Source: Tubulanus polymorphus (lineage: Eukaryota > Nemertea > Palaeonemertea > Tubulaniformes > Tubulanidae). From it: DNA of 64,000 nt. The position numbers and the translations under genes are program-made. The stretch is taken from NCBI RefSeq assembly GCF_964204645.1, contig NC_134026.1, positions 21,408,650-21,472,649 on the forward strand, in the 5' to 3' direction. The notes under the pieces are model-generated. The model was not told where the DNA came from, made no database searches, and worked only from the letters and a program-made list of their open reading frames with translations. Below are positions 599-54,555 of the stretch, in pieces; within the stretch, counting starts at the first letter, position 1, and the number at the start of each line of letters is the position of its first letter.

Positions 599-3500
599 TT
601 ATGCAACAGCTCCGGGGATCTTCGAAAGAACCTACGAATGCACAAAACAAAAAGACGGGTTATTCAAAATGAGTAAGGACTACTTCAATAAATACCTCCC
701 CCACTTTTTATCTTATATTATAGATAGAAACCGGTAATAAATCAACATCAATGTTGACCCGTCCAAAAAGACGGTCGCTTCAATGAAACGACGATGAACA
801 TCAGGGATTATCGTGTTATTCTCCAGCTACTAACAACTCACCTTTGATAAATCCACACCAGTCAACGCCTGCACGGTCGGTGGTAGTGAACTGATTAATT
901 TGCTGACCTCCGCCGATGTTCGATCGTCACCGATCATTACTATTTGATCGGTCTTTGCCAGTGGAGCGGCGACTTCAGCTGCCACCTGAAAAATTACCGG
1001 CGCGTGAAACGCTGAGTTAAAAGGCGCGGCTAACGGCATTGTAAACAAACAGAAATGACTTAAAATGCAGCAGCGCATATTACCCTCGGGAGTTTGACTT
1101 ATTACATAATGAATAGGGAGCCACGGGCCATATAAACGGTCAACAGTTATGGAGTACAGGTGATTCTTTGAAGATGGCCGCGCGGTTTAGTCCAGCCCCT
1201 AAATCAATTAAGCGGCTCACACAACAGACGGAGGACCTTATCGAGTTGGTCAGTAAAAGTTCAAGGCGCACGAGAAAGTCTCGAAGATAATTATCGGCGA
1301 CTGACCTTAGGTAGTGTGTCGAGTACGAGATTCAATACGGCTGCTTCTCCGTATTGTTTATATGCGGCTGCCTTTAATCTCATACGTTCGGCCTCCGCTT
1401 TACCGACTGCTTCGATAGCGCCCGCTTCCGACTGTCCGATCAGTTTGATTTTCTCCGACTCGGCGCGAGCTGTTTCGACTGTTTGAGTGCTGGAAAATGA
1501 CGATCGCAAATTCATCAAAATCGTCTACTATTTAGAGGCGAATGCAAATCTAGCCTTACAAAAATATCATTCAATTACCAATTGAGTATCATCCCACGCT
1601 ATCAGTCAATTTATAAAACCACGGAAGAATCCCAACAATTAAAACTTCATGATTGAATAATAGCTGTACTGTCACATGATTTGACCTGTGTAAATCTTGC
1701 TGTACTCATATTCAAATAATTTGTTTAATTCTACTGTAGGCTTGACTTAAAAACCCCTTGAGCATAAAACCCATTGAAGCCCAATCGAGCATAGCAAAAT
1801 TCATGGTACAATTTTGGAATAAATTTGATGTCATTTTTCATCTTATGGTACAATTTTGGAATAAATTTGATGTCATTTTTCATCTATCGAAAACTACGAC
1901 TTCAAACATTCGACGAAGGACCAACATTGGTCATGTGTCATAGATGCCAATTACTGATAACTGATTTTTCAAAATTTTCTGATTCTTCTATGGTTTTTGA
2001 AAGAGGATACGGAGGGTTCGAAAGACTTTCGAACCGTCCTCCGAAACCGGTTTACCATCATCGAATTTCATATAGAAACGAACACGTCAAAACTCACCGT
2101 TTACCCTCGGCTATTTGTTGCACTTTGTAAGCCTCCGCCTCGGCGGGACGTTTCACCGTACCGATCAGCTCTTTTTCCTTACGTAGGATTTCTTTCTCTT
2201 CGATTTCAATCTGTTTTTTACGTTCAACGACCTCGATTTCGATTTCCTCACTACGGATTTTTTGTCGTTCTTTCGCTGCCTGCAGTTCGTACGCCAATTC
2301 AGCCTCGGCTTTCTGAAGAACAATACGATGAATGATCTGATAATTTTCAGAAATTTTCTAGTCAAAGTAATCAACAATTCGAGATTTAAACATCAGGATT
2401 AGATTAGGTTTTGCTCATGGATTGTCTATTGTAGCTGCAACCATTTCTAATCTGTTATACCAATTCCAATTCCAATTCAAATTCAAATCTTCTCGGGTTT
2501 TAAAGGGCATCCACTGGAAATTTACCAGAATTTATGTACCTTTGCATTAACTTCCATATCAAATTCAGATTTCTTCATTTGGTAATCTTTGACAGAGTCG
2601 GCTATTTTAGTATCGGCGGAATATTTCACATCCATCTTTGCTTTTTCACATTCTGCTTCCTACAATAAGAGAAGATACTTCAGATGCAACAGTTCTTTCA
2701 CAAAAATTTTTTCAGGCATTTTAAGCAATACTTTAGGCATTGTCTTTTTTGATAATGGGATTGATTGAACCACAGGTGATTGGTGGTGCAGATTTTATTT
2801 TGGATACTTAGGTAATATAACCGTGGTATACATTTTTAGATTGACAACTAATACTGAACTTTAAGTAACAAATTTGATTTACGTAATAAAATCGACGTAT
2901 ACACGAATGAGCTTCTTTTTCTTTTGATGTTGAAATGGGGATGATTTCCTTAGTTATTCATTTCATAGAGTGATTTGGTTTGGATTGATACTTATTTGGC
3001 GTGACCCATAACTAACCCATTGCACAAAGATACCGAAACATGAACAAAACATGGGGCAACTTTTTAACCCAGTTAACTCAACTATGGGTCAGTCATATTA
3101 CACTGTCATGAAACCTACCCGAATTCCAGCATCTCGGTTGGCTTCAGCGACGCCGATGTCGGCGTCACGTTTAACGACGGCGGTTTGCGCGCGACCGAGC
3201 GACGATAGGTACTCGACATCGTCGTAGACATCTTTGATCGTAAAACTGAGAATTTCGATGCCCATTCTGCCGACGTCAGGCGACGCAACTTCTCTGACGA
3301 GCTGAGCGAATTTATCTCGATCTTGATACACATCTTCTACTGTTAACGTACCTTTAAAAATACATTTCGTTATTAATAGTTAATCTACTTCCATGAATTA
3401 AGGGTTATTCCAGGCCAGGTTTTATAGACTGGTATTAACTTTAACTCAGGGGCTAACTCTTGAAACTCTTAGGACCGGTTTTAAAGACTGGTATTAGAAT

Positions 3501-8700: not shown

Positions 8701-10052
8701 ATGAAGTCTCGAAACTGTTAAAATTCTAATTTTGGTTTCTATTGCTGAAATCAATGGTTTTCTGTAAGACAGTGAACTATGTGTTAAATGTGTTAAGTTT
8801 TTTAACTCGTATATGTCATGGCAGCCATTGGTTTCCAATGATATTACATTTTCCATAAAGACGTAATCTAAGTCGTATAATTCAAGTTGCTTTATTTGAT
8901 TCACACAACTTACATACCATATACCGGTAACTAATCCAGGATCTATCATCAACAAAGTTGTGGTACGGTAGATTTTGAAATGAATGTCTAGAAGAGCCAT
9001 TTTAATTTAGATTAAGTGATTGGCAGTAATTTTGCCACATGTTTTACTTAAACTACCTTGGTAATTAGAAAGAAACCCAGAAACCATAGAAATGTTGAGG
9101 AAGGAATTATCCCCGATGTTGAGAATGTCAATTTATCTATTGCAGATACTCAGGGTTGGGGTGTAAGTCCTCGCGGTGCTGGATTTCTATTCGGCGTTGA
9201 CGTCGTCGCTCAGTTTAATTCTGCCAATGATATCGATCTGATTTGTCGAGCACATCAACTCGTGATGGAAGGTTACAAATGGCATTTTAACGAAACCGTG
9301 CTGACAGTTTGGTCGGCGCCGAATTACTGTTACAGGTATGTTGGATCGCAATTGTTTTCTGTACAGGGTCCAGTTTCATGAAAAAGTTTACGCTTTTAAA
9401 AGGGTGAAGTTTGAATTGTTGTCCTCGTCGAAAATATAAGGCTGCCACTGGCGATTACACCAAAATTTGAGTAACCTTTTTCGTGAAACTGGAAATTTCA
9501 TTGGGTAGTTTCTTATTTAATCAAATCGGAATGGTAGAACTCTTTTAAAGAAAGACTGAAACCCAAAATAGATCTTGGTCCATCTGCCGTGTTATGAATC
9601 CCTGCTTTAGGTGTGGAACTATTGATTCCTATGGTTGTTAAATAACAGCCGGATATCACTAATTAGACTCTGAATATAAAACGAAAAATATTCTTAATCC
9701 AAGTTAATACAATAATTTCTGAAGAGAGAATCTGTGTGAAATCAGTTAATGGATAATTTCCAAACATCTATTCCTGAAATTGCATACCTAATAGACAATA
9801 GATTTCAGACGATATCAGAGTATCCTGAAAAATTCAAAGTATGCAGTACTCTAGTACCGGTACATGTAGTTCTAGTCCTCCAGCCCGAGAACTTCAGCAA
9901 TGTTTTGTATATTGTTATTCAGGTGCGGAAATGTCGCTGCAATATTGGAACTAGACGAACACTTACAGAAAGACTTCACGATATTCGAAGCAGCGCCACA
10001 AGATACGAGAGGTATTCCATCCAAAAAACCGCAGGCCGACTACTTCCTTTGA
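5759..10052 (+). CDS. PPP4C: Protein phosphatase 4 catalytic subunit, complete, 7 exons
   Basis: PPP-family Ser/Thr phosphatase, the catalytic core of PP4 complexes that act in DNA-damage signalling, centrosome function and splicing. Exons: 5759-5784, 6409-6532, 7036-7188, 7662-7835, 8517-8643, 9146-9335, 9923-10052. They sum to 924 bases, giving exactly the 307 aa of vertebrate PP4C. Metal and phosphate-site motifs are intact: [17 protein letters not shown] and RGNHESR; downstream HGGLSP and YCYRCGN also fit. PP4 rather than PP2A or PP6 is indicated by [10 protein letters not shown] near the start, KESEVKALC, and the C-terminal [13 protein letters not shown]. The terminal YFL is the motif carboxymethylated by LCMT1 in PP2A-like enzymes. 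The first exon encodes only MADCSDLD and part of an Arg. A candidate AATAAA is at 10187-10192 and another at 11603. Identity is nearly certain. Confidence 0.97.
6133..6255. repeat. Palindromic MITE-like element in PPP4C intron 1
   Basis: The left end GGGGCCAGTTGCTCAAGAGT and the right end (reverse complement GGGGCCAGTTGCTCAAAAGT) are almost perfect terminal inverted repeats. Further inward, GTTAACCAG and its inverse also pair. About 123 bp, no coding capacity. Confidence 0.75.
6790..6925 (+). repeat. Dispersed repeat, copy without insertion
   Basis: The segment containing AGGAGGACTCAACAGCGATT, later AAATTTGAAATT, and GGAATGACTGAT...CTGTAGGGACCCTG matches the reverse complement of 61885-62120. 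The latter carries an extra palindromic element. This copy lies in PPP4C intron 2. Confidence 0.6.
9367..9492. repeat. Inverted-repeat element in PPP4C intron 6
   Basis: CCAGTTTCATGAAAAAG at the left and CTTTTTCGTGAAACTGG at the right are inverted copies about 125 bp apart, typical of a small MITE. No coding capacity. Confidence 0.55.
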
Positions 10053-13032: not shown

Positions 13033-16000
13033 TTAGAGGGAACTTTTTGGAACCATATCAAATCGTTTCATGCTGAAAGGTTTCATATCATAAGCCGGTT
13101 TTTCACCTGTAACTAACTGCTTTAACAGTTTACCAACTACTGGCGCCAACTTGAATCCATGACCTGAAACGAGATATGAAAACTTTGCATGAATTGTCGT
13201 TTGGGGCCACTAAAAAGCCAAGTATGTAACATGCAACTGTAGAGCAGGATGTAAGTATTTTTTCAATCTTTTTAGGACATACATGAAGTATTTCGAAATA
13301 TCAACACAACGAGCAGGGTTTAAAGCAGTCATTGAAATTTGGGTCAGTTAGTCTTTGACCGTCATCCAGGAAAAATGAGGGGTATGAATAATTATAAATT
13401 TTCTAGGCAAGCCAAGAGTTGAAAAGTGCGGCCAATTAAAATCCAATAATGCGGGTGATCAGTGAGCCCATAGGGGAGGAACAATTTGAATCTTACTTCA
13501 TAATAAGAATTAAATTTATAAACCATGGACTCTAAAAACGAAGATTAAATAGAACACTCACCTGAAAACCCAGCACCAATCACAATGTTCCTATGTTGTG
13601 GATGATAGTCTAGGACAAAGCCTTCATCAGGGGTCATCTGGTAAGAAAACAGCAGACAATCAGCAGATTCTGAATACAATGCAACAGTGTCTTAAATGTA
13701 TGGGACTTACTAACTAAATTTTTTCCAGTAAATTATCTATGATGGATATTTAACGGAAAATTTATAACTTAATTTTGTTCAAGTTATAGTACATAACAAG
13801 ATGACTTGACTAACTGATTTTAGACTGAACGAAGAGTGTTCAATCCTATTGAATAAGGGTTGCCAATTTGGCAAGATTCGATAAAAGGAGTACATTGACA
13901 TCGTATTTGAGCAACTGCACGGTATAGTCTGAATCCCAGACGATGTACAATAGTTAGAAACTTACTTACAGTGTAAATGCAAGTCTCGATAATTGAAGGC
14001 ATCTGCTCCAATCCAGGAAAATGATCTTTTACATACTCGCATATCCTCTCTAAATATTCTTTATTTTGGGTTTTGTCACGATCATCAGGGTCTATCTCAG
14101 GACCCCCATGGAATGCCACCTAGAATTATCAACAAATTCGATATGACAACTGATTTTGATTTCTTAGGGTACAGGGAATAGTTCAGAGGCATTCTTTCCA
14201 ACATAGTTTAGCTCTGGGGCACCTCTGAGATGAAATAGGTGCCACCACCAGTGGCAACCAGGCATTCCAAAAAGTATAAAGCAAGAAAACTTCGGGGACA
14301 TTAAGTTTGTCTGCCAATGAAACAACTAAACCTGAAATTCTAGTACTGGTATTTACCTTCATATGATGTGGGTATTCATACGGAGGAAGGGTATAAAATG
14401 AAGAGTTTTCTCTATAATCATTATGAAGTGTAATTGGAGCGCATGATAAATCATAAGTTCCTGGAATCTTCTCTTTGAAATAACAGACCGTTACACGTAC
14501 AGGCTGGTGAAATAAAGTAAAACTATTAATTATCATATTCGCATCAATTAATCAATTAAATCAATTAGTTCATGTTGGTAATAAATCTAGTTTATTGCTT
14601 GACCAAATTAGGCAATCTATTACCTTGATGTGAAGAGAAACTCTGAGTGGTTTCAGTAACTTAGTCGTCCATGGTCCGGCGGTTATAACAACTTTTTTAG
14701 CTCTGTACAGGTTTTTATTTGTGTGTATATCGACTACATCACCAGGGACAATTTGCAGCACCTTTTCACCATCATGTAGAACTCCACCGAACCTCTTAAA
14801 CAGGTTCTTGTTAAGAAAAGAGAATAATACATGTAAATAAGAACTTTAATGCTTGAGCTTAGGCTTAAAGTTTTACATGCTGCAGTAAACTTATTTGGTT
14901 AGAACAATCATCCTTCAACCTATGGTACCTGCACAGCGAGTAGGCATTTATCAGCTTTCAAAATCCCAGCTTCTTGGTCCAACAAGAAAAGATCTGCATC
15001 TTCTTTGAATCTGAACATTGGATATTCTGACCGCACTTGCTCTTTAGTCAAAACAATATGTTTGGCATTGTTTTGAACCATTGATTTTCTGATACTTTCG
15101 CCTTGTTTAGGATCGTTAAAAAAACCAACTACCAACATCGCAGTCTGCCTGTAATTCGAAGCTTGATAACGTATGTGTTTAATTACTCAGTATATATTTT
15201 CAAGCATCTCTGCTTTTCATACTTGTACAATTCCTGACCAGTCATGTTTTCAATCCTTGACCACTGTCTGTAGGCCTCGCTCATCATTTTAGTGTAAACA
15301 TCGTCATCATAGAATTTCCTGATAATTCTACTGGAGCCATGAGAACTACCTCTCGAATGAGGTAAAAAAAACTGTAAAAATCAAAAATTCCAAACCATCA
15401 CTTGCTTCGATTGTAGCTTTGGAAGATATTCCAATGCTCTGCAAGACATTCTTCATTAGTAGGCCTTTATTGACTTAATATGCTTATGAACATGGTCTTA
15501 TAGTTGCAAACTGTTTTAAGGCCGCACACGCATACCCAATACCGGTTAAAGGGCCCAGTGTAAAAAACATTCACCACTTCAAGGTTAATCAAGGTTATAA
15601 TAACGCGCAGTGTTTCAGTAGTTGAATGGATCTACACTTAAAGCATCTGCTTCAGAGACTATCCGCACACATTTTTAGACGCTTCTATTTAGTTCATTAT
15701 GTTATGATATATTATGGGCTCATCAAACTACAACAGTACATAGCGATCCTCAATATCTATGGAAGGTCCTTTTTTGCCACAGGGACTTGTCACAATTGAT
15801 AGTAAATGAATAAAACCAATATCAATGACCAGGTCCACTATCCCTGTATAATGTAAATTATTTTATTGTACAGTTGCAGGGATACTGGTACCCCCATCAT
15901 TGGTCTCATCCATTATCAATCATGACAAGTCCCTGTGTTTTTTGCAGTCTGACTGATGCCATTTTAGGTTTTATAATAATCATTGTTTTTCCCAGTCCCA

Positions 16001-16864: not shown

Positions 16865-19800
16865 CTAGAGGGAGCTTTTTGGAACCTTGTCAAATCGATT
16901 CATGCATAAAGGTTTCATATCATGAGCCGGTTTTTCACCAGTGACTAGCTGCTTCAACAGTTTACCAACTACTGGTGCTAACTTGAACCCATGACCTGTC
17001 ATAAAAGATAAATTTAGGGATGAAATATGAAAAATATGAGCTTATCTAGTTAAATGCAAGATTCAATTCAGGGGTTCTCACCTGAAAAGCCAGCGCCTAT
17101 CACAATGTTTCTGTATTGTGGATGGTAGTCTAGGATAAAGCCTTCATCAGGAGTCATCTGGTTGAATGAAAAAATTGAAGTAGAACATAGTATAAAGTAG
17201 GCCTACTGGTGCATATAATCAGGAGGAAAAGTCAACTATCTGGACCCTATCCCATACTTGGCAGTTGAATTAGACCCATAAGTAAGTCAAGGTTCTGCCA
17301 GTACTTAGAAGCACACGTTTAAGTTAGACTCCATGAGCAAATAATTGGAAATGAACTTAATATTCTAACTTTAGTCTCAACCTTAGTTTATAACTGTGGA
17401 AGTGCCGGGTCCTGCATAAATACATCGGTAATAAATGAACATAGTACCATAGTAACTTACAGTATATATGCATGTTTCAACAACTGAAGGTACAGGCTCC
17501 AATCCAGGGAAGTGCTCTTTAACATGCTCTACACATCTTTCGATGTACTCTTTGCTGGCCTCCGCTTTATTATCACGGTTATCAGGATCAATATCTGGAC
17601 CACCATGGAATGCTACCTACGATCATAATAAAACCAGAAGGCACTGACAATACTGGCGAAAGATTTCAGTGTTCCTAATTTCATTGTGTCTCAGTGTTAG
17701 CTGGCACACTCTAATGAATTACCTTTGTGTGCTCATGGTATTCGTATGCCGGGATTGTATAGTAAAACATCTTTGTATTAAAGTCCTTGAAAACTGTTAT
17801 GGGACATTGTTCAAATCCATAAGTTCCTGGAATCTTCTCTTTGAAATAGCAGACCACTACGCGAACAGGCTGAAAATGAGGTATGGTAAATCCTATGAGT
17901 ATTACAGATATATTGAAATGTTCAGCTTTAATGCCAGTTAATATAGTAACCTGGATGGGAAGTTTGACTCGCAGTGGTTTCAGTAACTTTGTCGTCCATG
18001 GTCCGGCGGTTATGACAACCTTTTTAGCTCTGTACAGGTTTTTATTTGTGTGTATATCGACTACATCACCAGGGACGATATCCTGCACCTTTTCACCATC
18101 ATGTAAAACTCCACCGAACTTCCTGAATAGACCCTTGAACAGAAAGAAGATCAAACAAACTTATTCAATCTATAGATATTTGTGATTTATCAGTTACACA
18201 GCCTTGAGGTCCTGATGATTATCATGTTAATGTATAAACAGTTCATATATTTTGTACTTCGATAATCATTTAAAAAATCAGAACAAATGAAATAAAATAC
18301 AACTCAGATCAATTGACCTTATAAATATTGGTTCTATTAGTATTCAAAATTTTTTGTCCTGAATTGTTTGATTCAATCAGACTTCAGGCAATTCATCATC
18401 TATTAGTGTTTGTGAAAATGAAACAGGGGGTCCTTAGAGAGCCCAAGGCCTTTTTTCAAATTACTTGGAGTATAAATCTGCCTCCCAGAATTCTGCAAAA
18501 ATCATCTAATTGAATAAAATTCTTTCTGCTATAACCGTCATGATTTTCAATCTAGTAACTTTAAGTTATGTTCGTCTTAATTTTCAATCTTATGATTTGC
18601 CAAAAATGTATTTCTTTTTATTTCTCCCATCAATTGAGTCAAATCCATCAAAATTTTCACTCCTTTTTAATTCTTTTTTTCTGCAGTCCTTCCAAGGATT
18701 AGTGTGGAAAATACTCAAATAATCAAAAAAATAATTTTAATTTTTCCTGTTCCCTTTCATCGTACAACGCCTATTATAATAACCTTTTTTCCCTTAGCCC
18801 TCCCATTTTTTCTTACCTGTACAGCAGCAAGGCATTGATCAGCTTTCAAAATTCCGGCCTCATGATCCAGCATAAAAAGATCGGCATCCTCTTCATACTT
18901 GAACATCGGAAACTCTGACCGCACTTGCTCCTTAGTGTAAACTCTGTGCTTGACATTGTTTCGAACCATTGATCCTCGGACAATTTGGCTCTGTTTACGA
19001 TCCTCGTATAAACTAACTACCAACATCGAAGCCGGTCTACAATTGAAAATACAGTTAGCCTGTTTGTTCATAGTTGTAACTGCTTTAAGTATTGAATGCC
19101 ATGAAGAGAAAAACACGCTAGATCTTAAACGACTGCTTTTTTTCTTAACGTATCGGGTGGATTACTTCCACCAATCTTCAGAATTTATTCTAAATTGAGA
19201 TATGATTACAATTCGTGCAGGGTCGCTCTAACTCACACCATATCACTCATTTACCACTTACCACTCTGATGATGGGTAGAAGTATTTCATCGAAGCGTTA
19301 GAAAAAAAACAAAAGCAATTGTTTTAGATCTACATTGTGGGTTTCTCCACCTGAGGCTCAATATAGGGGGAAAAAAAGCTTAGCACTTTTGTCATATTAC
19401 TGTAATATAAGTAATATGAGTAATCAAGGGCTAATCTGTTATTTTACCATATGTAAGTAACCAGTAGCTATCCTTAGTAATCTATAGTAATATGAAGTAA
19501 TAACATGTAATGGATAGTAATCTATAGTAATATGAAGTAATAAGACATAATGGATAGTAATCTATAGTAATATGAAGTAATAAGACGTAACGCATAGTAA
19601 TCTATAGTAATATGAAGTAATAACATGTAATGGATAGTAATTTATAGTAATATGAAGTAATAAGATGCTTCATATTACTATAGATTACTATCCATTACGT
19701 CTTATTACTTCATATTACTATACATTACTATGCGTTACGTCTTATTACTTCATATTACTATAGATTACTATCCATTACGTCTTATTACTTCATATTACTA

Positions 19801-35626: not shown

Positions 35627-38600
35627 TTACCAGTGTAAGAAAATGATGCTGAAGGCAAGAATTACCAGGTGGAACAGAGCATAAATCGGCGTGATCGCTT
35701 TCGCTCCGCCTACCATGTATCCGGTCGTACACTGGAAGTGATTGATTCTCTTCAACACAGACATGAACTGTTGGCCGAGGTAGTCCTTGTAGTTCTGCAT
35801 TTCGGGCGGAATCGACACCAGACGCACGGCTGAGTCGGAGAAAATGAGGTCGTACTTGTCGAAACCGGAGTCGAACATCTGAAATTCTTTGTTTCTGTTA
35901 CGGGAAACAAAAAAGACATCGATGAAAGATACGGTAATAAGACATGATAAACAACAATTAGATGCCCAGCGTTCTCCACAAGACCTTTTAGAGATTCATT
36001 TTTACATGCACACCTCTGAAAATCACCCCTTATAAAATATCTACTGCCCCTAACAGCGTGGATATGAATATTCTATCAATGCTGATAATTGCTTTGAAAT
36101 ATATTCATCATCATCATCTTAATCATCATCATCATCAATTGACGGATCCATCGGAGGCTTTACAGCCTATTAATATCCACTTCGATGTCTCGCTTTAAGT
36201 TGCAATACGGCAGTAACCCAGCTTTCGCTTGGAAAAACAGCTTTGATTAATCTTGAGTAATTTCGCTTTCAAGACACAATTTACCCTTGTTGTACTAGGG
36301 CAGGCCAAGAAGTATTGAACTAATGTGACAAATAGAAGATAACCCCGAAATTTAGCATAACCCTTAGCTTTTCTGAGAGTTCGAAAGCCTTGCTACTTCA
36401 GCAGCCACGAGGTCATATACTTAAAACAATGAATGCAGCCCCCTTGAAAATTCCAGCATATGGAGAACACCAGATGTGGGGACATACAAGCGAGTTTTGA
36501 AAGAATAATGCACTTACCCATCGGAGGCAAAGAATGACTGCCCGTAATTCAAGAATTTCCAGAGAATCTTGCGTTCCCAAGGTTGCTTATAACCTGTAAT
36601 AGATCGGCGAAAATAAATCAGTGGAAACTGAGCATCCCGCAAACCACTTACATCAACCCCGAAAAATACACCAGGAACTGAATTTTGTACCTGCGGTGAC
36701 GACGGCAGGCGCTTTGATCTGCTGCAGATGACAGTTGCGCCAGTCATCAATAGGTCCTCGAGTTCCGTCCATGCACAACAGCTCGTAGTCATCGGCTCGA
36801 CGATTTCTAGCCCAGTAATCGGGATTCCTACCGCCGGTGTTATCGCGGGCTACCGTGTGACGAGTGAACGAAACATCTCCACCGTCTAATCAAAATTTAT
36901 GGGTTGAAAAAACTCTTCAGTTGAGAGAAAATCATGCATTCGATAAATGAGAAATTTCTTTTTACAATAATGTTGTGCTATGGTTTTTCTGTGGATGCAT
37001 TAAGTGATCATGAGTACCAGTATATGAAAATTTTTGTTCAGCACAGGAGGGGGGGGGGGGGTAATATTTGGCAAATAGCCTTTTTCGATTTGACAGAAAA
37101 ATCTTAAAATCAGGACGGACATTGAATGGAAATTAATTACCTTCGACGAGGCACCTGAACGATCCACTGTCGCCGAAGTACAACTCCCGACTGTTTCTCT
37201 GACATTTGTCACTGCCTCCCGAGGCGCACGCCTCGCACAAATTGATTCTATAACGGTCCGGCTTGTATCGTTCATTCAGTACTCCGGGCGCACAGGCCTT
37301 GAAGAAAAATTCACCTGAAATAAGAAGACATCGCTAATGAAATTCTAATAATAATTGACATTTATATAGCGCAGGTATCCTTACAAGAGTGAGTTCAAAT
37401 TCTCTCAAAATTTGGTATTATCACCCCCAGCCTATAACTCTACTCTATGAATTAGTCATCTCTCCATGGGGGAAAGTAACATCTGAGCAGCTACTCAAAG
37501 CTCAGGAGTCATATATCAGGCCAGGTACCCATTTACTCCTGGGTGGAGAGAGGCAATGAGGATAAGTACCTTTTCCAGGGCCACTACAATAATGTATCGG
37601 GTTCAAACCCTGGCTTCCCAGAGTCGAACGCACTAACCACACGCCCACACCGCTTGCTCAAAAATTCTACCTTATATCTCATCGTTTGTTAAATTATATG
37701 ATGTCTTCAGTATGAAAGCCGAGATATTTGAAAACGATATTTCTATTCATTGGGATTATATTTTACATCTTTGAATGAAGAAGAGACTTACCGATAGCGT
37801 CGTATAAGTTACAATCGTCGGGTCTGATTAGAATCTGATTGGTTTCGATCAGCGTGGAGACGGGTATCACCCATCCCGCCGCCATATTCACACCCGAGAA
37901 ACAAACCCGCCGCGCTAAAAACGATAGAACATTTCGTTCAATTATCGAGTCGACATCAGGAAATTAATTCAAGGGACAATTGAAATTCTTTTAACATATA
38001 TTTAAAGAAATCCATTCCCATTATATTCCCATATATATCCACATTTCAGCACAAATGGTCATTGAATGCCCCATAAGGATCAATATGATCTGGATTAAAA
38101 ACAGGATTTGACGTAGACAAGACTGTTCGATAATTTTCCAATCCATGACTGGGTTTGTCTCGAAATGTTCGGCCAATTCTTACATCACAGCACGACGCTG
38201 TTAATAATTGATCGACCAACAAAAATTTTATATACCTTTCAGATTGAAAATGGAAATGTCCGGATTACTTTTTCGTACGATCGCAACCGCGTACTGCATT
38301 GCCTCACCATCGCCGTAGTCTTCAGCCGCAATCGGCACGAGATCGTAATATCTACAAATACGAGCAAGTATTTCACCGATTAAACGAAGGTGGTATCAGG
38401 ATAATTGCCCCCGGACAATTGCCCCCAAATTAAATCTTTATAATCTTAAAGTAACACAGATATTTACTTCAAATTAATTAGACTAAGTGAAGTGAACTAA
38501 TTCTAGCTAGAGTTTTTACTCTAGGACTGCTTTAAAGTTTTTGATTGGCTAAAGTAACACTAAAACTAATTCCAATAAATAAGCCAACGTAAGTTATGCA

Positions 38601-41600
38601 CAAATAAGTGGACTTATTAATTTTCCTTTAATTTGGTAAGTGAATTATAATTACACGAGGACTGATTTAAAGTTTTTGATCTGCACACAACATCAGTAAT
38701 TCTATATCTTATAAATCTATATTCAATAATATAGAAATGAATTTCTAAGTAAAGTATTTAGGTGGTGTTAATCCAAATCAAAAAGGATCTTATTCGGGGG
38801 GCAATTGTCCTAGAATCAACTAAGGTAGCACTATCAACTGCAGCAAAACATTAAGCAATGCAGCCCATATACCGGTATTTCATCTACCTAGTACCTCCAA
38901 AATTTGAAAGTGTTTAAAAGATCTCATTAGAAAATAAAGATGGTGGGTTCAATCTGATTTTATGCAAGATATATGATAATTCCATGATGTCCGATATTAA
39001 TTCTTTAGAAATTTGTTTTTTACTAATCATTTAAATTCTGTATACATTTGTATAGTGGGATTTAAACTTATTATCCGTTACCCACGTCAGAGTGTACGGG
39101 CTATTCTACCACACACCATCTTCGATTAGATGAGAATTCAATTGACTTACTTTCCAGCGTTATAGATGTCGGCTGCATCCAATGTAATCAAATCGGCGTC
39201 ACCGTCTTTGATCTTTTTCATACAATCCTGCGTGGAATCGGCGAGAATGCAGCTCAGTTCGGGCTTGATGCGACGCGTTTTAAACGCCATCGTCATCATT
39301 TCGCATTTTTTCATTTCGTCCTCGGAGATGACGCACCAGCGAGCGCGCGGGATCGGACACATTTCTAGTACATCCAATTTCTTCATATACTCAGGTCCTG
39401 AAATATAACGAGTTCATAGTTTACAGTTGCCAGCTACACAGAACAAAATTACAATGAGTCATTTAGGGCAACTTTTTATTTTCAAGTATAACAATTCTAG
39501 GACCCTTTTTTGATATCTGGGGCTTCCATTGTCTTAAGGGCTACTGTCTGATTTATGGACTCCATCTTGATAAGTTTTGTAAAACTGAACCTAGGAAACA
39601 GTTTAAGTTTGTCAGTTACTTCAAATCTGCCAATAACAATCCTCTCAAATCATTTCGATATAATGTGACATTTTCGAGGTTCATTCATGCAATCGAAAAA
39701 AAAAAAAACTGATCCTACTCACCAACCCATTTATCGTAACTGCTTCTGGATCCGACATCGACAAGCTCTGTTGCATCATCGGACAACATCAAATTATTTC
39801 CGGTATAATTCCCAAGCGTTCCTTGCCAATTGGATGCAAACAGATCAAATCTATTATTGTACGGACCAGCGGGACCAAAATAACCAACCAAATCGATGAT
39901 GAACTCCTTCAAATCGGCCATATGCGCGTCGTTGGCTGGACCAGTCGACGCGAGCACCTGCGACGCTACAGTACCCCAGTTACAGCTCATGTAACTGTTC
40001 AAGTCTTTGCGCGATCCATCAGGACACAAAAGAACAAAATCCTGAAATGTACCAAATTACAGACGCTATTTCCAAGTCAAAATTCATAGCTTCATTATAT
40101 TTATCCCTAAATGTGGAGGAAAATCTTTTTTTCAATTATGAATACTTTGTCACAACTTCTGTAGATGGAATTGAGTCGTGAACATTGGTATGTCAAATGA
40201 TTAGATAGCATGGCTTCACTGAAGTTCAACCCGGTAGGGCGCCAGCTTTCTTATATTTTACAATGAAAATGAATAAAACAGAGGCCAGTTCTCAGAGGTT
40301 GAACCAAAAAATAACTAGTCTAAGTTGGTGGCTTCAGGTCGGGATGATCGATTGTGAAATGATCATGTTTAAAACAACAAACTGAATGACATAACTTAAT
40401 AATAGTATTCAACCTACACTTTCTCTAAACGGGCTGGTCGTTCCATTCGCACCGACAATCGCTTCAATTATACCGGCTCGTAAGAACGCCACATCTCCTG
40501 TACCGCTCGCCATGCAGTTAAACGCTCCGACATAGTTGGCAAAAGTGTCGTTTGATGTACAATAGTTTTCTTTCTTCCCACTACATAATTCACAAGCTTT
40601 CATCGGATTCATACCTGAAAATCATACGACCGAGTGGAGAATTTCTTTTCTAAATGTTGACATGTACCCACAAACCTCCTATCCACCACGCGTTGAGGAC
40701 AGGACAAGTCCTAAAACTTGAAGATTGCTAATTTGTTTCTACCGTAAATGTATTGGTCAAAATGTATTGTAAGCAGACAAGGGAGGCATCTCTAGTTGTA
40801 ATCATTGAGTCATAGAGACCTACTAACCGTAGCTGTTATAGTATCTACTAAGCACCGACGGTACGCACATACTGCCGAAATGATTGGCAACTGATTCGAC
40901 ATGCAGGTTACACTCTTTCACTTCAATTATACCCATCTGCAATAACTGTGAAACTGGTAACGTCCATCCAGCTCCCCAGCCCATACCTGCAGAGTTAATC
41001 ATCATATTGTCATTATAAAATAAGAGGGAGTCCAATTTCAGAATTAGTTAAAGTCAGGCCTAGTCTAAATTTGTGTCGTACCTGGTGAGCATATTTTCTT
41101 TCCTTTTAACGTGTCTTTGTTGACGTCGGGATTATCTCGCCTTGCCACCATGACCGCGTGCAAATCCGTTTCTGCAAAACAAAAGTGAATCAATGAATCA
41201 GTCAGTGAATCAATATCATGCTATAGTGGTTGGTGATCAAATAAGAAATTGCACTTCCGATACACTATAACCTTCAAAGTTTATTTACGATAGACGCAAG
41301 AGTTTAGTTCAGTAAAATTTTGAAAGAAATTATGGCAATCTTTTTTCTTTCATTCCCTCAACCCACTGGAGCACCACGCAGGGCATTACAGCGGGTTCGA
41401 TGTTTCTTTATCCCAACAGGGGAGAGACCAGAGAAGAACCTTCGACCAAGAAAATCTTGTCGCTACCAGGGTTTGAACCCATAAACCCTGGATCGACGAG
41501 ACCAGTGATCGGCAGCTTGACCTACTCGGCCACTGCGCCTCTCGACACTGATTATGATAAATAAAAATGAACGTGTATATTGACTCATTAAGACTCCCAT

Positions 41601-42470
41601 CCCTTAGGTTTCACAAGGGTTCAGAGGAGGCACATGCACAAGAACTTCTTTTAACACAAGATTTTTGTCTTCCTGAGTATAGAGGACTGATTACACAGAA
41701 CAGCCGCATCAAAAACCTGTACGAACCCCCTATTTTGTCAGGCGACAGGATCCCTTTCTAAAATCTATATCGTCCTGCAAGCCTACAACCGGGTAGATAA
41801 CAACTCACCCATTCCATATCTCTCAGCCATCAGAGGTATAAGACGGAAATATCGGCCAGCCATGACCATTTCACCGGCATCTAAAGACACGAGGTCGGCT
41901 TTTCTATAGCGTACGAGACTCATGCAGGTGAAACGATCAGCGTTTCTGACGACGATACATTCCAGAGTGAATCGCACCATGTAGATCTGTACAAACTTTT
42001 TCATTTCCAAACATTTTCCTTCTTCGGCAACCGTAACGCACCATTTAACAACTTGAAAAAAAAAGAAAGACCTTTCAAGGATCTTGTGTATACTTTCAAA
42101 TGAGTGAAACGGTCAAGACTGAGGAAGCAAATAAGATTAATTTTAGGTAGGCCTCACCTCGGCTCAGGTCTCTGTAATCATAATTATAAACTTGGCCTCT
42201 AACTATATTTTGAGTGGCCATACTACAAATCATACACACAAACTATGAATCAGTTTTTCACTCAAATTACTGAGTAGAACTTTTATAGTACCAGTCTTTT
42301 TATAGTGGAGAAAGAGGGTCAAAAATGAAATAATCATATTTATTCTTTTGCCAAATTTGGGCCTACCTACCTTTCCTGGTGCTAGGATTTCGATTACCGA
42401 ATTGGCCATCACATTGATTTGTCAATGCGACCAACACAACCAGCAAACACCCAAACGCAAATTTTATCAT
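35627..42470 (-). CDS. Transferrin-family protein, melanotransferrin-like, 13 exons
   Basis: Two-lobe transferrin, predicted extracellular and GPI-anchored. Exons: 42371-42470, 41809-42051, 41082-41171, 40828-40986, 40418-40614, 39723-40041, 39151-39397, 38236-38351, 37792-37914, 37141-37314, 36691-36885, 36518-36593, 35627-35894. Frame is continuous, giving 768 aa. An N-terminal signal peptide (FAFGCLLVVLVALTNQC) is followed by the N-lobe (from VVKWCVT, about residue 34) and the C-lobe (from ARWCVISEDEMKKC, about 385). The C-terminus is a hydrophobic tail (IYALFHLVILAFSIIFLHW), as in GPI-anchored melanotransferrin. For the last exon only the acceptor at 35895 keeps frame, adding NKEFQ before MFDSG. 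N-lobe: Asp (LDAGE) and the second Tyr (ANYVGAF) remain; the first Tyr and the His (FLRAG) are missing. C-lobe: Asp (LDAAD), first Tyr (QYAVAVV) and His (FTRH) remain; the second Tyr is Asp (GDSGSF). The anion-binding Arg is absent in both (GWGAGW, NMAAGW). Iron binding is therefore doubtful. Confidence 0.92.
37339..37690 (-). repeat. tRNA-derived SINE in a transferrin intron
   Basis: On the minus strand the head reads like a tRNA: an A-box-like TGGTTAGTGCG followed by a B-box GGTTTGAACCC about 40 bases later. It ends with a tail CGCTATATAAATGTCAATTA then TTATTAG, a 3' end common in marine invertebrate SINE-like repeats. Length about 350 bases, non-coding. Confidence 0.65.
38398..38811. repeat. 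MITE with GGACAATTGCCCCC ends in a transferrin intron
   Basis: The left end holds GGATAATTGCCCCC followed at once by GGACAATTGCCCCC. The right end GGGGGGCAATTGTCCT is inverted. The 414-bp interior is AT-rich, with GCTTTAAAGTTTTTGATTGG and a related ATTTAAAGTTTTTGATC. No coding frame. Confidence 0.7.
41341..41543 (-). repeat. tRNA(Ser/Leu)-derived SINE in a transferrin intron
   Basis: Reading the minus strand from 41543, the head GGCGCAGTGGCCGAGTAGGT resembles the 5' half of a class II tRNA (A box TGGCCGAGTAGG). GGGTTCAAACCC is a B box, set after a longer variable-arm-like stretch. The tail ends in GAATGAAAGAAAAAAG. Mismatches in the acceptor region argue against a functional tRNA gene. Confidence 0.7.
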
Positions 42471-46653: not shown

Positions 46654-46921
46654 CAGCAGCTATAATCTCTTCTCCGATGCGTGTAAAACACACGCAGACA
46701 CTATCACAAATCAACAATCTCGATATATAATCGAAACAAATATAAATTACATGAAATGAATTAACTGAAAATACTGCAGGGAAATAGAGATCGTTTCAAA
46801 AAGACCATATCGTTATGCGTTTCAATTTCAAAATAGAGTATTGCATGCGAGGCGCGCGACCACTGTGGCGCGGTTTCGACAAAAACACGGTACGAAAAAA
46901 ACCCAATGAACTGTTGTTTTT

Positions 46922-49900
46922 TTATTGTTCGTCAGAGCATGGGTTGCTGTAACCGGGAACGTTTTGACAGACGGCGTCCTCGCCGAAACCGAGAACCTTT
47001 CCGAATTTATACCGCACGTACCAATCCGGTTGAACGGTCATCCACGATGCGCCGACGAATTTCAGGCCCTTATCGGATACAAAATTTTCGACATCGAACA
47101 AACACCTACAATGAAAAACGAGATTTGTTTTAACACCATATGCCGCAGACGGGGTAAAAATATACGAGTATATTTCACAAAAAAAAACAAGAAAATCAAC
47201 AGAATAAACAAACCACACAAAGCGTCATATTGACATTATATGCGTGGTAAATAACACTCGATTCGCATAAAAGGATTTAAAGATTTTTCAATTTTGTTTT
47301 GTGGCATCTGCGTTTGGTTTGATTCAATCGTTTAGAATCATTTTGTGGTAATGAGTTTAGATTCATAAGCTTGTTCTCCGCTTGAGCTTTCTTCCGAGGT
47401 GCCCTCGTAATTATATATGATATGCCCTTTTTTGAGGTAGCACCCTTCCCTCGGACCTTAGATCCGCCCCGTATGGCTCTGCGTAAGGAACGTATCAAGA
47501 ATCACGTGCGCATTTTTTTTATGATTGGAAGAGGCCTTTTTCGTTGCGGTAAAAGGGGAAGGGGAATTGCGGAGGGAGAGTTGGAAACATGCATGCCTAA
47601 CGCATGTAATGTAATGCTATATACTCATCGGTACTCTCGTGATGAACTGTCAGTAATGGGCACATAAAACGAGTGATGTTTTTCGCCTGTTGTAATTAAT
47701 TTTGTCGCCTTACCCAGCAATTATAATTCCCGCAACGGCATCAGGCCATTAAGGCACTTGTGAACACCGTAGCGATGTATGTGTATATGAGATAAACCAT
47801 TGCAGCTGCCAGCAATCAAACTGTTCCCAACTTCCGAGTAATAATCATAGTATTATCTGATTTTGTGCGAATTATTTTATTTTGATTGGCTCCGAGTCAG
47901 AGAATGCAGAGATGCCGTGTTTATTGACTTGCTCCTCGCCACTCACACCTAACCGTGCGGACCATGAAAATTGGTTGAAAAGTGTGGTGAAAATAAGAAA
48001 TTGTTAAGAAACCCATAACGCAAGTTCTAAAATTTAAGCTTCAAATCAAAACATGAAATAAGAAACTTTCTAGACATCTTGGACTTTCACTTTTTCACTT
48101 TTTTCTAGGTCGTTTCGATGGAAATGTGTATAACGTCGTTTTTTATTTCAATTTTGGTACCGGATGAAACGGTCGAAAAATCTCCAAATTGAAGAACTGA
48201 ATAAAAAAAGATCGCATGCAACTCACCGTCCTTTAAAAAGTGGGTGACAGTTGTCATAGGCATATTTCGCTAAATCCTTAGCAGTTAACGACGTAGTTGC
48301 TTCCGTATGCTCGTACACGACAAAATGATAGAAATGTTTTGCGTCAGGTGGTAGCGGCCCGATGTATTGTATAAGTTCTCTACCCGTGTTGCCATCGCCA
48401 TTTTTTATGTCAGTCAGCACCCAATGCAGCAACGGCTTGCGATAAGTTCCGGCGGATTTATCTTTGACGTCTGCGGCTAGGAATAAAACTGTGTGTCGTT
48501 TTGCTGCAGAGAAAAGTATAATCTTCAGTGTTTTACAAATGCATTTTTCGTTTTTTACATTTTTCTTTAGATCATATCATGAAACATATGATAATGATTT
48601 GATAATGATTTTCATTAACCATTTTGAATCATAATAATTGTACAATAGTAATACGAATACAAAAATTCAAGACGCCTGAAGAAACCTTTTATGATTTATA
48701 GGATATTCATTCCACCTTTCCATATTTTGTTGCGAAAATAAATCCAAAATCTTTAATTCGATCGAGATGACTCTGAAAACTGTATGTCATCTGACCGATA
48801 GACAAATGTATGCTATTGGGAGAAAATATTCGTATCGATTCCGTTCCGAATCTGAATATGATTATCGATGGGCCATTATTCATCCAACTATAAGTGTATA
48901 TGACCTGTCTAAAGGCCGCTCGGTTCGGCACCTTTTTACTCATGCAACACATCTAGCGATGTACGAGAACTGCAATGAATGAACTCTCTCAATGGCCATT
49001 CTAAAGCGCCATGTAATGGGACATGTCGACCCTTCCAAGGCCGTATTAAAGCATTGCGCACCGCGAGACCTAGTTCACCTAATATGTTGATTATTCACAC
49101 GAAACGACCATAAAACTACGATTTCCGTCGGTTTCTCAATACTTACTACTAATTTTTTGTTCTTTAAATGGATAAAACGCGCGAGGTATGATGTTGATAG
49201 TTGGTGGGTAACCAGTTCTAGCATTCACCGAGTTCACGATTCCGCTGCCAATTGGATTCAAATAAACGGTTTCCTCTCTATAAACAAACATATAATAAAA
49301 AATTATCTCTTCTCGCAAAATTATGAAAGATGATATTCTTCACGACTTAAACTTTAATTCAAGGCGTTAGTGTTATTTCTATTTTTGAAACGAATACAGC
49401 TCCACAGTTAACCAGATGAATTCATATGAAGAAATCACAACGAAAAACACCGCATAATATGTAGCAATCAGTATTATTAAAATGAGATTAAAAAGAAAAT
49501 CGGTATAAAGTTGGGGGATTGTATAATCACGTATCCCGTTTCCATCTAATTTCAAGCTTATTGGAATATCCCTTCTGCTGCATATCCGACTTTAGGCGGA
49601 TTTTCATTTTAATCTCATTTTAACAATACGATTGCTACATATTATCCGGTGTTGTTCGTTTGTGTTTTTGCGCAAATGTAATTTTGTCGAACGATAAAGT
49701 GCAATTCAAATTGAAATCCATCTATGTAAGTAGACGTTTTACGAACATAGAGCATGATATTTGTAATGCCCAGTGGATTGAGCATACGCAGTCACGACAC
49801 AAGCGCAATCGCCAGGGGTGTATTTGATTCAGAAATTAATTAAAGTGAACTTTGAATTACAGTTTCATTAGCAACCTAATCGTTTTTAATCACCACAGAT

Positions 49901-52900
49901 GCGCATTATACCCATGGTATTAAATCATTGTGTCATAATCATGTGGGCAGTCGACGCATGCTTAAACGCTATTTTATAGTTGAGTAGGCGAAATCCGCGA
50001 AGTGGGTATAAGTAATCAAGAATTAAATCCCGGCCATGTCACTCAAAGTTGATGGGTTAATAGAATTTTTTGTTTTACTTTTCAAAAATTAAGTATTTTA
50101 TCTCGGATATTCTTATTTCTACCTAACCGCCATACGAACTTTACCGAGTTAGTTTGTATTAAATTCATAAAATACGATACAGTCTATCTGTATGCATATA
50201 CGGATTACTTGAATGGTCTTCGTAACGGATAGGTTTGCGCTGCATCGCAGTTCGTTAATATTTAATCGTATATTTCAGGGACGAAGCCCATTAATGCCAC
50301 TTGCTTCCTGGGAAAATGCGAAGAAGAATACGTACTTGTAAGAATGCGTCCTGCAACAGACGTCGAACTGTATGGCGGAAGTCGTGAACGAAACATTCAG
50401 GAATGTCGTCTGACTAACATGAGCGGGGAGAAAACTGCGAAACGGTTCTTGTTGTCGTTCTCCAGTTGCTAATGAGCAAATAAGAAAAAAACGGATGGGT
50501 TTAGGTGACTCACGTCTAAGTAAATAGGATGACTAAAACTTCCCAGTAAAACGTCTTATGTTTGTATAACCTATACATATTAGGCTTTACACGAAACATT
50601 TTCTTCCATGGATACACCATACAAGTATACTAAGATAACCTTATAATTTAACCGCTTTATTGATACAAGTTACAAATCATGAGATAAAGACTTTGATGAA
50701 GATGTATTTCACGTCACAAATTAATTAGATTGATGATAAAAACACGCAAATAAGATTCGCGAAAATATATTCTCTCGTTGGTTATGCATATTATCAATTA
50801 CTTTATGTAATTCGACATCGGAAACTTACCTTCTTTTACGAAGTGTGGGCAGTTGTTCACGAATCCGGTGTCTAAAGCTTCTTGCGCTGAATACTTGTCG
50901 AACGATATCATAATCCAATTCATCGCTACGGGACCTTTATATAATGAGGAAATCTTAGAATATAAGTCTAAAGCTTAATTGAAAATTTTGGTAATCTTTA
51001 TTACGTATTACCTTGTCTAAAATACATTTTGTGTAATGCATATACATGTATATATAGCAAAAAAATGAAGACTTACCTACTAGCTTAGATTTATCGACGA
51101 ATTTCTTGAGTATTGATTTCGGTAGTGATCTTAGGTTTCTGATATCGGCGGACGACTTTCCCTTCTGTTTGAACAATATGAACAGGTAGGGATTCGCTAT
51201 TGGACGGAAGTTCAACGGTCGTTTATACGGAACCAGTTCCTAGAACAAATTTGTATAGAATTGATAGAAAAACCTGTGGAAAAAATAATCGTATACAGAT
51301 TGTAAAACATTATGGTATTTTGGGAAATTGAAGAGAACTAAATGCCATCATATTGAAGGACCCAATTCACAGATTTGCAGTGTTATTACTTTTCAAGGGC
51401 GGATCTAGGAATCTTTGAAGGGGGTAGACCTGAAAATTGGAATGGACATTTTATTTGAAAAGGACAGATTTGGAAGTGCGAGGGCTGCAAGCGCGAACAT
51501 TCGTTAGGGTTCTGGTGGCCCTCCCAGAGAAATCCAGGATCAAAAGGGGCATTTCTGGCCCTCATCACTTAACAGGGCCCATTCGGATTTGTTTTTCATC
51601 TTTAAGCTTGTCATGCAAAAAATGTTCCAGACGTTTTGGCAGGCACGTTCGAATTTGGAAGGGGGTAGACCATCACCTCCTAAAGCCGCATCTGGGAGTA
51701 TAATGTATTGAAATTTACTCGTAGTGCAGTTACATAACAATTAGAAATCTTCAGAATATTAGATCACAATGTGAAAACGAAATAAGTTTGATTCTAAGTT
51801 ATAGTAACCCACACTCGCGGGACGTAGGTCTCGATGTTGCGTTGGCGAATATATTTTTGCCGATGGTCTCCGTCGTGGAAAGCATATAGTTTATTCCGCG
51901 GGGTACGATGCTAATGGTGCGACGCGAAGAATCATTTATTGTTCACCGATGAATTCCGTGAAAAAAACACTCGGAAATATTATCTTTTTTTCTAAAGGTA
52001 AATGGATCCGCGGGGAGCTGAACGACGAAAACACGGTACCGACTACGAACAGCGGAAAGCGTGGTTGGCTTTCGTGATAGTTTTAATTAAGTCGTTGGAC
52101 GTTATGGTAAACAGTCCAAACACGATTAGAGCTTCCCCTCGTCGACTATACTTATATATAACATCCTAAATTTCATCGTCGCACAGCCATTGATCAATTT
52201 ATTATTCCACATGTAAATCGTATCAAAGATCATTCCCATTAAAGTAGCAATATGCTATATTAGAAAATGTTTTACCGTGTATGTAGTTCATAATAGAATT
52301 TTGAAATGAGATTCTAAAATGAGATTCTTATCAAACATAAATCCCCGAGGAAAAAAATCAAACCTCATCATTATGTATAAATTTATTGCATCTAATGGAC
52401 TGGTCAATATTTTATAGTCTAACTCTGATTGTTGTTCACAAATTAATACCTGCAGTCGTGGTCTATCAACAATGGCTACAGACCAATTGCCAATGGTTTC
52501 GATTCTGAAGACGCAGTTATAGAATAAGATCGTTTTAGAAGAGTAAATCATTTCATATTCTTAACTTCGCTGCACCTCTAACCATGGACTCTATCTAAAA
52601 ACTTCGTTAGAGTGCTTTTACCTTCAAAGATAGAACTATCTTCGATCGTTTTATAGACCATTATCCCGGGGCTGGATTCTAACATCAGCCCCTATACGGT
52701 ACAATAATATATATTTGGTTGAATCATTGAGTGTAATATGGAAACATCACTGGTTAACATTTGAATAGCTTCCTCCGAGCAACACTGACTGATTTCTGTA
52801 AAACTGTTCTTATATAGGTGATAATGATACCAACTTACCTTTCCTTGATTAAGAGTGTTTCCCGGAATGTCGACCCATAAACCGTGTATATTTCCGAGAC

Positions 52901-54555
52901 CCGCGTCGACTATGATCAACGTATGCAAAGTACGCCCGCTTTTGCCGGTCCACGAAATCTGGGGTCTAAATCTCGTTTGCCAAGGCGTCGCTTCTACACG
53001 ACCGGTCGGATACGCGTAGAATACTTTCGAAGATTTCTGTTCCACCACGTCGTTACAGCCTATATATCTACCTAGTATATTTAGGAGAGAATTAACGGGG
53101 ATGAATCATATCTGTTGAAATTCAGTCAAAGAAAAATATTTTTCTTATTTTAGATTTTTCAATGTGGGAACTATGTACCTGGTGGTGACTTGTAGCGAAC
53201 TATCAGCCGTTTGTTTAAATTGTTCATCATTTTAGGCCCGCGTTTTCCGAACAGACGAGTTGCCAGGCTCTCCGGGCGCCGATCTGGATTGTAACAATCT
53301 ATCGGGTCTGTTTTCGCGTTGAAACATCTACGTTGCCAACTTCTGCCGAACCAGAAATAACCTTTACTCAAAGCGCGGTATTTTATTTGGAAGATCTGAT
53401 GCCCCGTTGAGCCGCAATTATTGCATTTCCCTGCGCCAGAACCTGCAAAAAGTAACCGAAATTCCGGCTTTCATTAAAGTCCGTCGGGAAAACGAAATTA
53501 GATTAAAGTTGAAACTGAATTTCTGATTGATGAGTCTCTAAGATGCCTCATCTATCTTTATTTTGCTCTCAACGCATCATGGTGATGTATAGAGCAACAG
53601 TACGGTGATAAAATCATTTCATTGTTTTTTATTTCCCTTATCGTTGAAATATCGTTTAGCGTATACACGTTTATATATTGCAACCGCTCCCAATGAATAG
53701 CCATCATCTCCGTAAATATTCGAGTAGATTAGAGAATATCGAAGAGTGCACGACTACGCGCCAATTCAAATTTCAATATTTCGGTTTGGAATATTCATGA
53801 GCTTTTTTGACGACGCTTACCCGGCGAATTTTTCAGTTTCATAGGAATATTAAATGGAGGGTTTCGTGCGCGAGACGCTATACGCGATAATGTGAAATAT
53901 AGACGGGCGGCACATCGGTGAAAAATATGTTTGATGTACAGCTCGCACGATTCGTTTTCATTAGACGAAATGATGATTGAGAAGCGAAAAGATCGCATAA
54001 AAGGATAAAATGACAACTCAATGCAATACCGATAACGACCGAACTATAGCAACCGAGTCGCATAACACTATATCCCGCATACAATAATAACATTTTGTTA
54101 TTTTGTTATGGGTTCTGCGTCCATTATTTCTTTTTCGCCATAGAAATAAGTTCATTATACCTAAATATATGTAATCATTTATTTAGTGAACAACAAAAAG
54201 AATTTAATTACACGCGCAACGGCGAATATATTCAAATTTTGATTTTCAAGATTATTTCGAGGATTCATCAACGGATAAGTTCATATACCCGCTATATACC
54301 AAAAACAAAAATTCATAAAGACTATAATAAATTTAGCCAATACTCATTTTAAAAGCGCTTAGTTTATTTTGAAAACGAATTCCCCTTAAAAAAAAACGGA
54401 AATTATATAAATTATATTTATATAATCGTTACCATCATCATTGCTATCATTATCAACAAAATAAAGAACAAATTCAACTTACCGAAAACTGATATCGAAC
54501 AAATTATGAAAAATAAGAAAAATCCGTCAAATACAGAAAGCTGGTGCGCAGCCAT
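46922..54555 (-). CDS. Secreted protein with two PEBP-like domains, 8 exons
   Basis: Exons: 54483-54555, 53179-53442, 52839-53071, 51077-51239, 50830-50934, 49147-49275, 48227-48503, 46922-47105. Phases agree, giving 475 aa. The N-terminus is a signal peptide (FFLFFIICSISVFG, cleavage likely near residue 24), followed by a Cys-containing linker (CNNCGSTGH). Domain 1 (about 110-280) follows the phosphatidylethanolamine-binding fold in order: TLHTLIIVDAG, GLWVDIPGN, YLFILFKQKGK, KLVGPVAMNWIMISFDKY. Domain 2 (about 285-460) repeats it: TVLFLAADV, LLHWVLTDIKNG, ELIQYIGPLPP, FYHFVVYEH, KFVGASWMTVQPDWYVRYKFG. The classic DPDxP and GxHR ligand-site motifs are absent in both (DAG and ADVKD; NPYLF and FYHFV). 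Ligand or protease-inhibitor function is therefore unclear. Extra Cys residues at the end suggest disulfides. A TATA-like TATTTAAA lies about 210 bases upstream of the ATG. Family assignment is by pattern, not search. Confidence 0.82.
47340..47483. repeat. Fragment of the CAGGGGCGGATC repeat family
   Basis: In PEBP intron-free 3' side of exon 8 intron: contains TTTAGATTCATAAG, GAGGTGCCCTCGTAATTATA and ends TTAGATCCGCCCCG. These words match the right part of the element at 45902-46133 in the same order. The left end is missing or degraded. Confidence 0.5.
51398..51685. repeat. Degenerate repeat starting GGGCGGATCTAGG
   Basis: GGGCGGATCTAGGAATCTTT resembles the start of the CAGGGGCGGATC elements. 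GAAGGGGGTAGACC occurs twice (near 51417 and 51657), with CCGCATCTGGGAG near the right end. It lies in PEBP intron 3 between exons 3 and 4. Assignment to the same family is tentative. Confidence 0.35.

Follow-up and report, generated by a model that had tools for sequence, protein, structure and literature searches.

A gene on the minus strand of the 64,000-nucleotide stretch of Tubulanus polymorphus DNA analysed here, referred to below as the window, raises the question of whether the PEBP fold, which is normally single and binds phosphate-bearing molecules, occurs twice in one secreted protein, and of what has become of its ligand pocket there. To our knowledge, PEBPs are studied nearly always as single-domain proteins. 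The answer depends on whether all exons belong to one gene, whether both halves of its product are PEBP-type, and which pocket residues each half has kept.

The coding sequence (54555..46922, minus strand) begins with the ATG at 54555, ends with the stop codon TAA at 46924-46922 and comprises 8 exons, whose 1428 bases encode 475 aa; a preliminary description of this DNA had given the coordinates 46922-54555, which are exactly the start and end of this model. Every donor is GT, every acceptor is AG, and the exon phases are consistent throughout. Exon 1 (54483..54555; like all the others, on the minus strand) contains the ATG and a hydrophobic leader (aa 1-25, hydropathy maximum at aa 11) and has a gtaagt donor, and exon 2 (53179..53442), placed by splice phases and codon usage, encodes a basic N-terminal segment (aa 25-113) with Cys 31, 34, 64 and 74. 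Domain A is encoded by exon 3 (52839..53071, first part, aa 113-190, VDAGLGNIHGLWVDIPG), exon 4 (51077..51239, middle, aa 191-245, ANPYLFILFKQ) and exon 5 (50830..50934, aa 245-280, with C273 and the C-terminal strand GPVAMNWIMISFDKY), all three of them placed by the splice model and by matches to solved PEBPs in the PDB. Domain B starts in exon 6 (49147..49275, aa 280-323), placed by phase and open frame only, has its core in exon 7 (48227..48503, aa 323-415, AADVK..LLHW..GPLPP..KHFY), which lies in the half that matches PF01161, and ends with GASWMTVQPDWYVRY in exon 8 (46922..47105), which was placed by the splice model and also encodes the tail with C461 and C471 and the stop codon. Both motif sequences quoted in the preliminary description occur in the translation: GPVAMNWIMISFDKY covers aa 245-259, and GASWMTVQPDWYVRY stands close to where domain B ends. 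An AATAAA on the same strand (46921..46926) overlaps the stop codon and is a possible polyadenylation signal. The G+C content is 45% in the coding sequence versus 36% in the introns, and codon usage is coding-like and unlike that of the introns in exons 3, 5, 7 and 8, borderline in exons 2 and 4, and uninformative in exons 1 and 6.

The junction between exons 5 and 6 is where the locus could instead be divided into two adjoining genes, exons 1-5 then coding for a secreted protein with domain A and the remaining exons for a domain B protein that starts in or before exon 6. In favour of this division, the open frame of exon 6 (ORF 49136-49339) has an in-frame ATG a short way upstream of the exon, and readthrough of exon 5 would stop after about 12 codons (ORF 50798-50974). 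Against it, the donor at the end of exon 5 is a consensus gtaagt, the phases of exons 5 and 6 agree, and domain B made separately would have no signal peptide despite its four cysteines; two genes are considered very improbable. Two AGs stand side by side at the acceptor of exon 6 (49275), and the splice model uses the second; splicing at the first would shift the frame and lead to an early stop.

Elsewhere in the window, the Pfam family Transferrin is matched by exon-like ORFs at 35630-35995, 39718-40056 and 41786-42112 (minus strand, window 35630-42112), which are predicted to belong to at least one transferrin gene, located about 4.8 kb past the 3' end of the PEBP gene. Two further minus-strand ORFs, 14186-14551 and 17714-18160, have a stretch of 16 protein letters in common, and the latter matches FAD-dependent oxidoreductase (DAO) just under the cut-off, which suggests neighbouring duplicate genes of a sarcosine-oxidase-like type. 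An exon at 3101-3379 (minus strand) matches Band_7 with E 3.5e-10 and is flotillin-like by eye, and another at 9052-9378 (plus strand) by eye resembles the catalytic subunit of a protein phosphatase, its Metallophos match (E 0.0017) being below the cut-off.

The PF01161 HMM search separates the two halves of the product: domain B matches with E 9e-9 (36 bits versus a curated cut-off of 24), whereas domain A alone has no match at E 10. Domain A is recognised by phmmer against solved structures, where, searched alone, it finds Hd3a best (E 8.6e-5), followed by CG7054 (E 5.5e-4) and by Tm16, FT, CEN and mL38, down to E 0.003; a reversed domain A, searched from a hand-typed copy, gave no PEBP match. 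Domain B matches solved plant and animal PEBPs with E 0.0019 and weaker, and the ordinary PEBP of the genome, used as query, reaches exon 7 at 31% identity with only E 0.06. Bacterial PEBPs, retrieved with this ordinary PEBP, are too distant to help: in a profile comparison, both halves are in register with the motif region and barely above shuffles (22.6 versus 21.4 for the best of 100 shuffles in domain A; 23.3 versus 19.7 in domain B). No relatives were found in viral contigs, and none in prokaryote genomes with domain B as query. Structure models of two single exons, 3 and 7, were of low confidence; the former (mean pLDDT 58) gave no PEBP in a fold search, and the latter (mean pLDDT 62), whose alignment contained PEBP rows, ranked PEBPs first at E 0.35 or worse. 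By sequence comparison, both halves are confirmed as PEBP-type beyond chance, forming two tandem domains, and the proposal of two successive PEBP segments stands, for domain B through the family profile and for domain A through the solved structures.

Compared directly, the two halves align in IHGLWVDIPGNTLNQGKELVPYKRPL and LHWVLTDIKNGDGNTGRELIQYIGPL, which correspond to the HW strand of PEBPs and are identical at 10/26 positions (E 0.002 in one comparison). Introns lie near both domain borders, at aa 113 and 280, as well as inside domain A (aa 190 and 245) and inside domain B (aa 323 and 415); when the alignment is read by eye, no internal position is common to the two domains and none coincides with an intron of the ordinary PEBP gene. 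Because there is no shared internal intron and little direct similarity, an internal duplication is indistinguishable from a fusion of two PEBP genes, and, judged from the gene structure, a fusion of two separate genes would be as possible as an old internal duplication with intron turnover.

With a mean Kyte-Doolittle value of 2.4 over aa 11-25, the leader is strongly hydrophobic; its start has no Lys or Arg. It is probably a signal peptide, as had been proposed, in view of its hydrophobicity and of the even number of cysteines in each module, and the protein is probably secreted. The mature protein would have ten cysteines, distributed 4+2+4 over the N-terminal segment, domain A (Cys 118 and 273, near its ends) and domain B with the tail (Cys 408, 416, 461 and 471). 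Such even counts are compatible with disulfides formed inside each module, and the arrangement as a whole would fit a disulfide-stabilised secreted protein. The protein contains no N-glycosylation sequon and is strongly basic, with a computed pI of about 9.6 for its mature part. The N-terminal segment after the leader (87 aa) matches no Pfam family above the cut-off; a zinc knuckle was considered there and rejected (E 0.035, below the cut-off). Within this segment, RRPESLATRLFGKR (aa 79-92, window 53179-53442) resembles a neuropeptide processing site, dibasic and with Gly-Lys-Arg, a likeness that may easily be due to chance, the segment being so basic.

In human PEBP1, the pocket includes D70, A73, P74, Y81, W84, H86, V107, G108, G110, P111, P112, H118, Y120, L180, Y181 and L184 (PMC3338619); D72, which is part of the DPDxP motif, is outside that list. 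These positions were mapped by eye via PDB alignments and the ordinary PEBP of the genome, and the placement of the DPDxP loop is ambiguous, since another alignment places it differently. The proposed degeneration of the DPDxP and GxHR motifs is borne out in each domain, with VDAGLG and ANPY at the two sites in domain A, and with AADVK, where the second Asp (D72) is still found, and AKHFY, where His and Tyr remain but the Arg is replaced, in domain B. The accompanying claim that the canonical pocket was lost fits domain A, which keeps about 3/13 aligned pocket positions (D70, H86 and Y120), lacks counterparts of D72 and H118 as well as the Y81/W84 loop, and misses most of DPDxP and about nine residues ahead of the His. 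It does not fit domain B, which retains HW, G-x-x-PP and H-x-Y, with D72, Y81, H86, V107 (as Ile), G108, P111, P112, H118 and Y120 kept, and has lost the equivalents of D70, P71, A73, P74 and G110. As far as the aligned residues indicate, pocket loss is strong in domain A and partial in domain B.

Given that the second Asp, HW, G-x-x-PP and H-x-Y are kept, domain B may bind an anionic ligand, and domain A, most of whose pocket residues are gone, is inferred to be structural or protein-binding. The protein is most likely a secreted binding protein, in which domain B would bind the ligand and domain A would have a structural role or bind a partner. C118-C273 would tie the ends of domain A together. 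Domain B would form a modified anion pocket around the His, Tyr and Gly-Pro-Pro positions and bind an extracellular ligand that bears phosphate or sulfate, and the strongly basic charge of the protein would aid the binding of acidic partners. In its full form, a single-copy gene whose secreted product is stabilised by disulfides and joins a basic four-cysteine N-terminal segment to two PEBP domains that differ in this way, the proposal has, in our estimation, about an even chance of being correct. Two other readings concern the same residues. That both pockets are dead, leaving an extracellular module with a purely structural or protein-protein role, like the PEBP part of mL38, would suit the few positions kept in domain A, the presence of mL38 among its matches and the absence of D70, A73, P74 and G110 from domain B; we consider it possible, if rather unlikely, as both His, the tyrosines and the Gly-Pro-Pro loop are kept in domain B, which would not be expected of a drifting pocket. 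That the pocket of domain B is functionally intact, making the protein a secreted, PEBP4-like phospholipid-binding PEBP with an extra domain, is more doubtful: the equivalents of D72, H86, H118 and Y120 are there, but substitutions affect D70, P71, A73, P74 and the GxHR Arg.

No second copy of the tandem gene was found in the 268-Mb genome, where a search with both halves, which may miss weak matches, returned only this gene. The genome also contains the ordinary PEBP (C2:26.22 Mb), with DPDAP, HHW and GLHRY, an mL38 named by eye (C3:5.385 Mb, L010), and a further PEBP exon (C2:29.017 Mb, L013 4942-5166) with GTGFHRY and GYAYPTPPGGTGFHRYEFMLYKQ, which, by eye, likely belongs to a PEBP4-like gene, perhaps a secreted one.

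Beyond the preferred reading of a secreted binding protein, the gene might stand for an animal-specific class of extracellular PEBPs, in which a pocket-less domain A and a modified-pocket domain B would act as one unit on a new non-phospholipid ligand or receptor, an extension that we regard as unlikely. A secreted tandem PEBP in which one pocket is emptied and the other modified would offer a natural way of testing what the fold is capable of with a relaxed ligand site; the gain in general understanding would be modest until relatives and the ligand are identified.

Among known systems, PEBP1/RKIP and the FT/CEN-type PEBPs (PF01161) match both halves, and domain B is like them in its HW, GP-PP and H-x-Y; they have one domain, no leader and full DPDxP and GxHR motifs, in contrast to the two diverged domains found here. 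Vertebrate PEBP4 is secreted, as is probable for this protein, and has a single PEBP domain instead of two. The mitochondrial protein mL38, whose PEBP part serves as a structural component of the mitoribosome, likewise has the fold inside a larger protein and matches domain A, but it has one PEBP domain, and the genome has its own separate mL38. TES-26 (Tc-PEB-1) of Toxocara canis is a secreted protein in which a PE-binding domain is fused with two ShKT domains (PMC3611597), resembling the present protein, which is probably secreted, in that a PEBP is joined to an extra cysteine-containing part; it differs in having one PEBP domain and ShKT extras, the N-terminal segment here being without a Pfam ShKT match. 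Two predicted PEBP domains in one protein are described for the genome-survey gene models CqFTL2 (PMC9871630) and BjATC1 (PMC9308242), of 339 aa and 281 aa, respectively, and the quinoa authors propose tandem duplication for CqFTL2 (PMC9871630). Both share the two domains with the protein described here and belong to the plant FT/TFL family, and the available text of the two surveys makes no mention of a leader. A literature search, with most subscription journals outside its range, found no report of a secreted tandem animal PEBP; databases may well contain unnamed examples. Set beside these systems, the protein departs from the usual PEBP pattern and is still recognisable as a variant of this familiar family.
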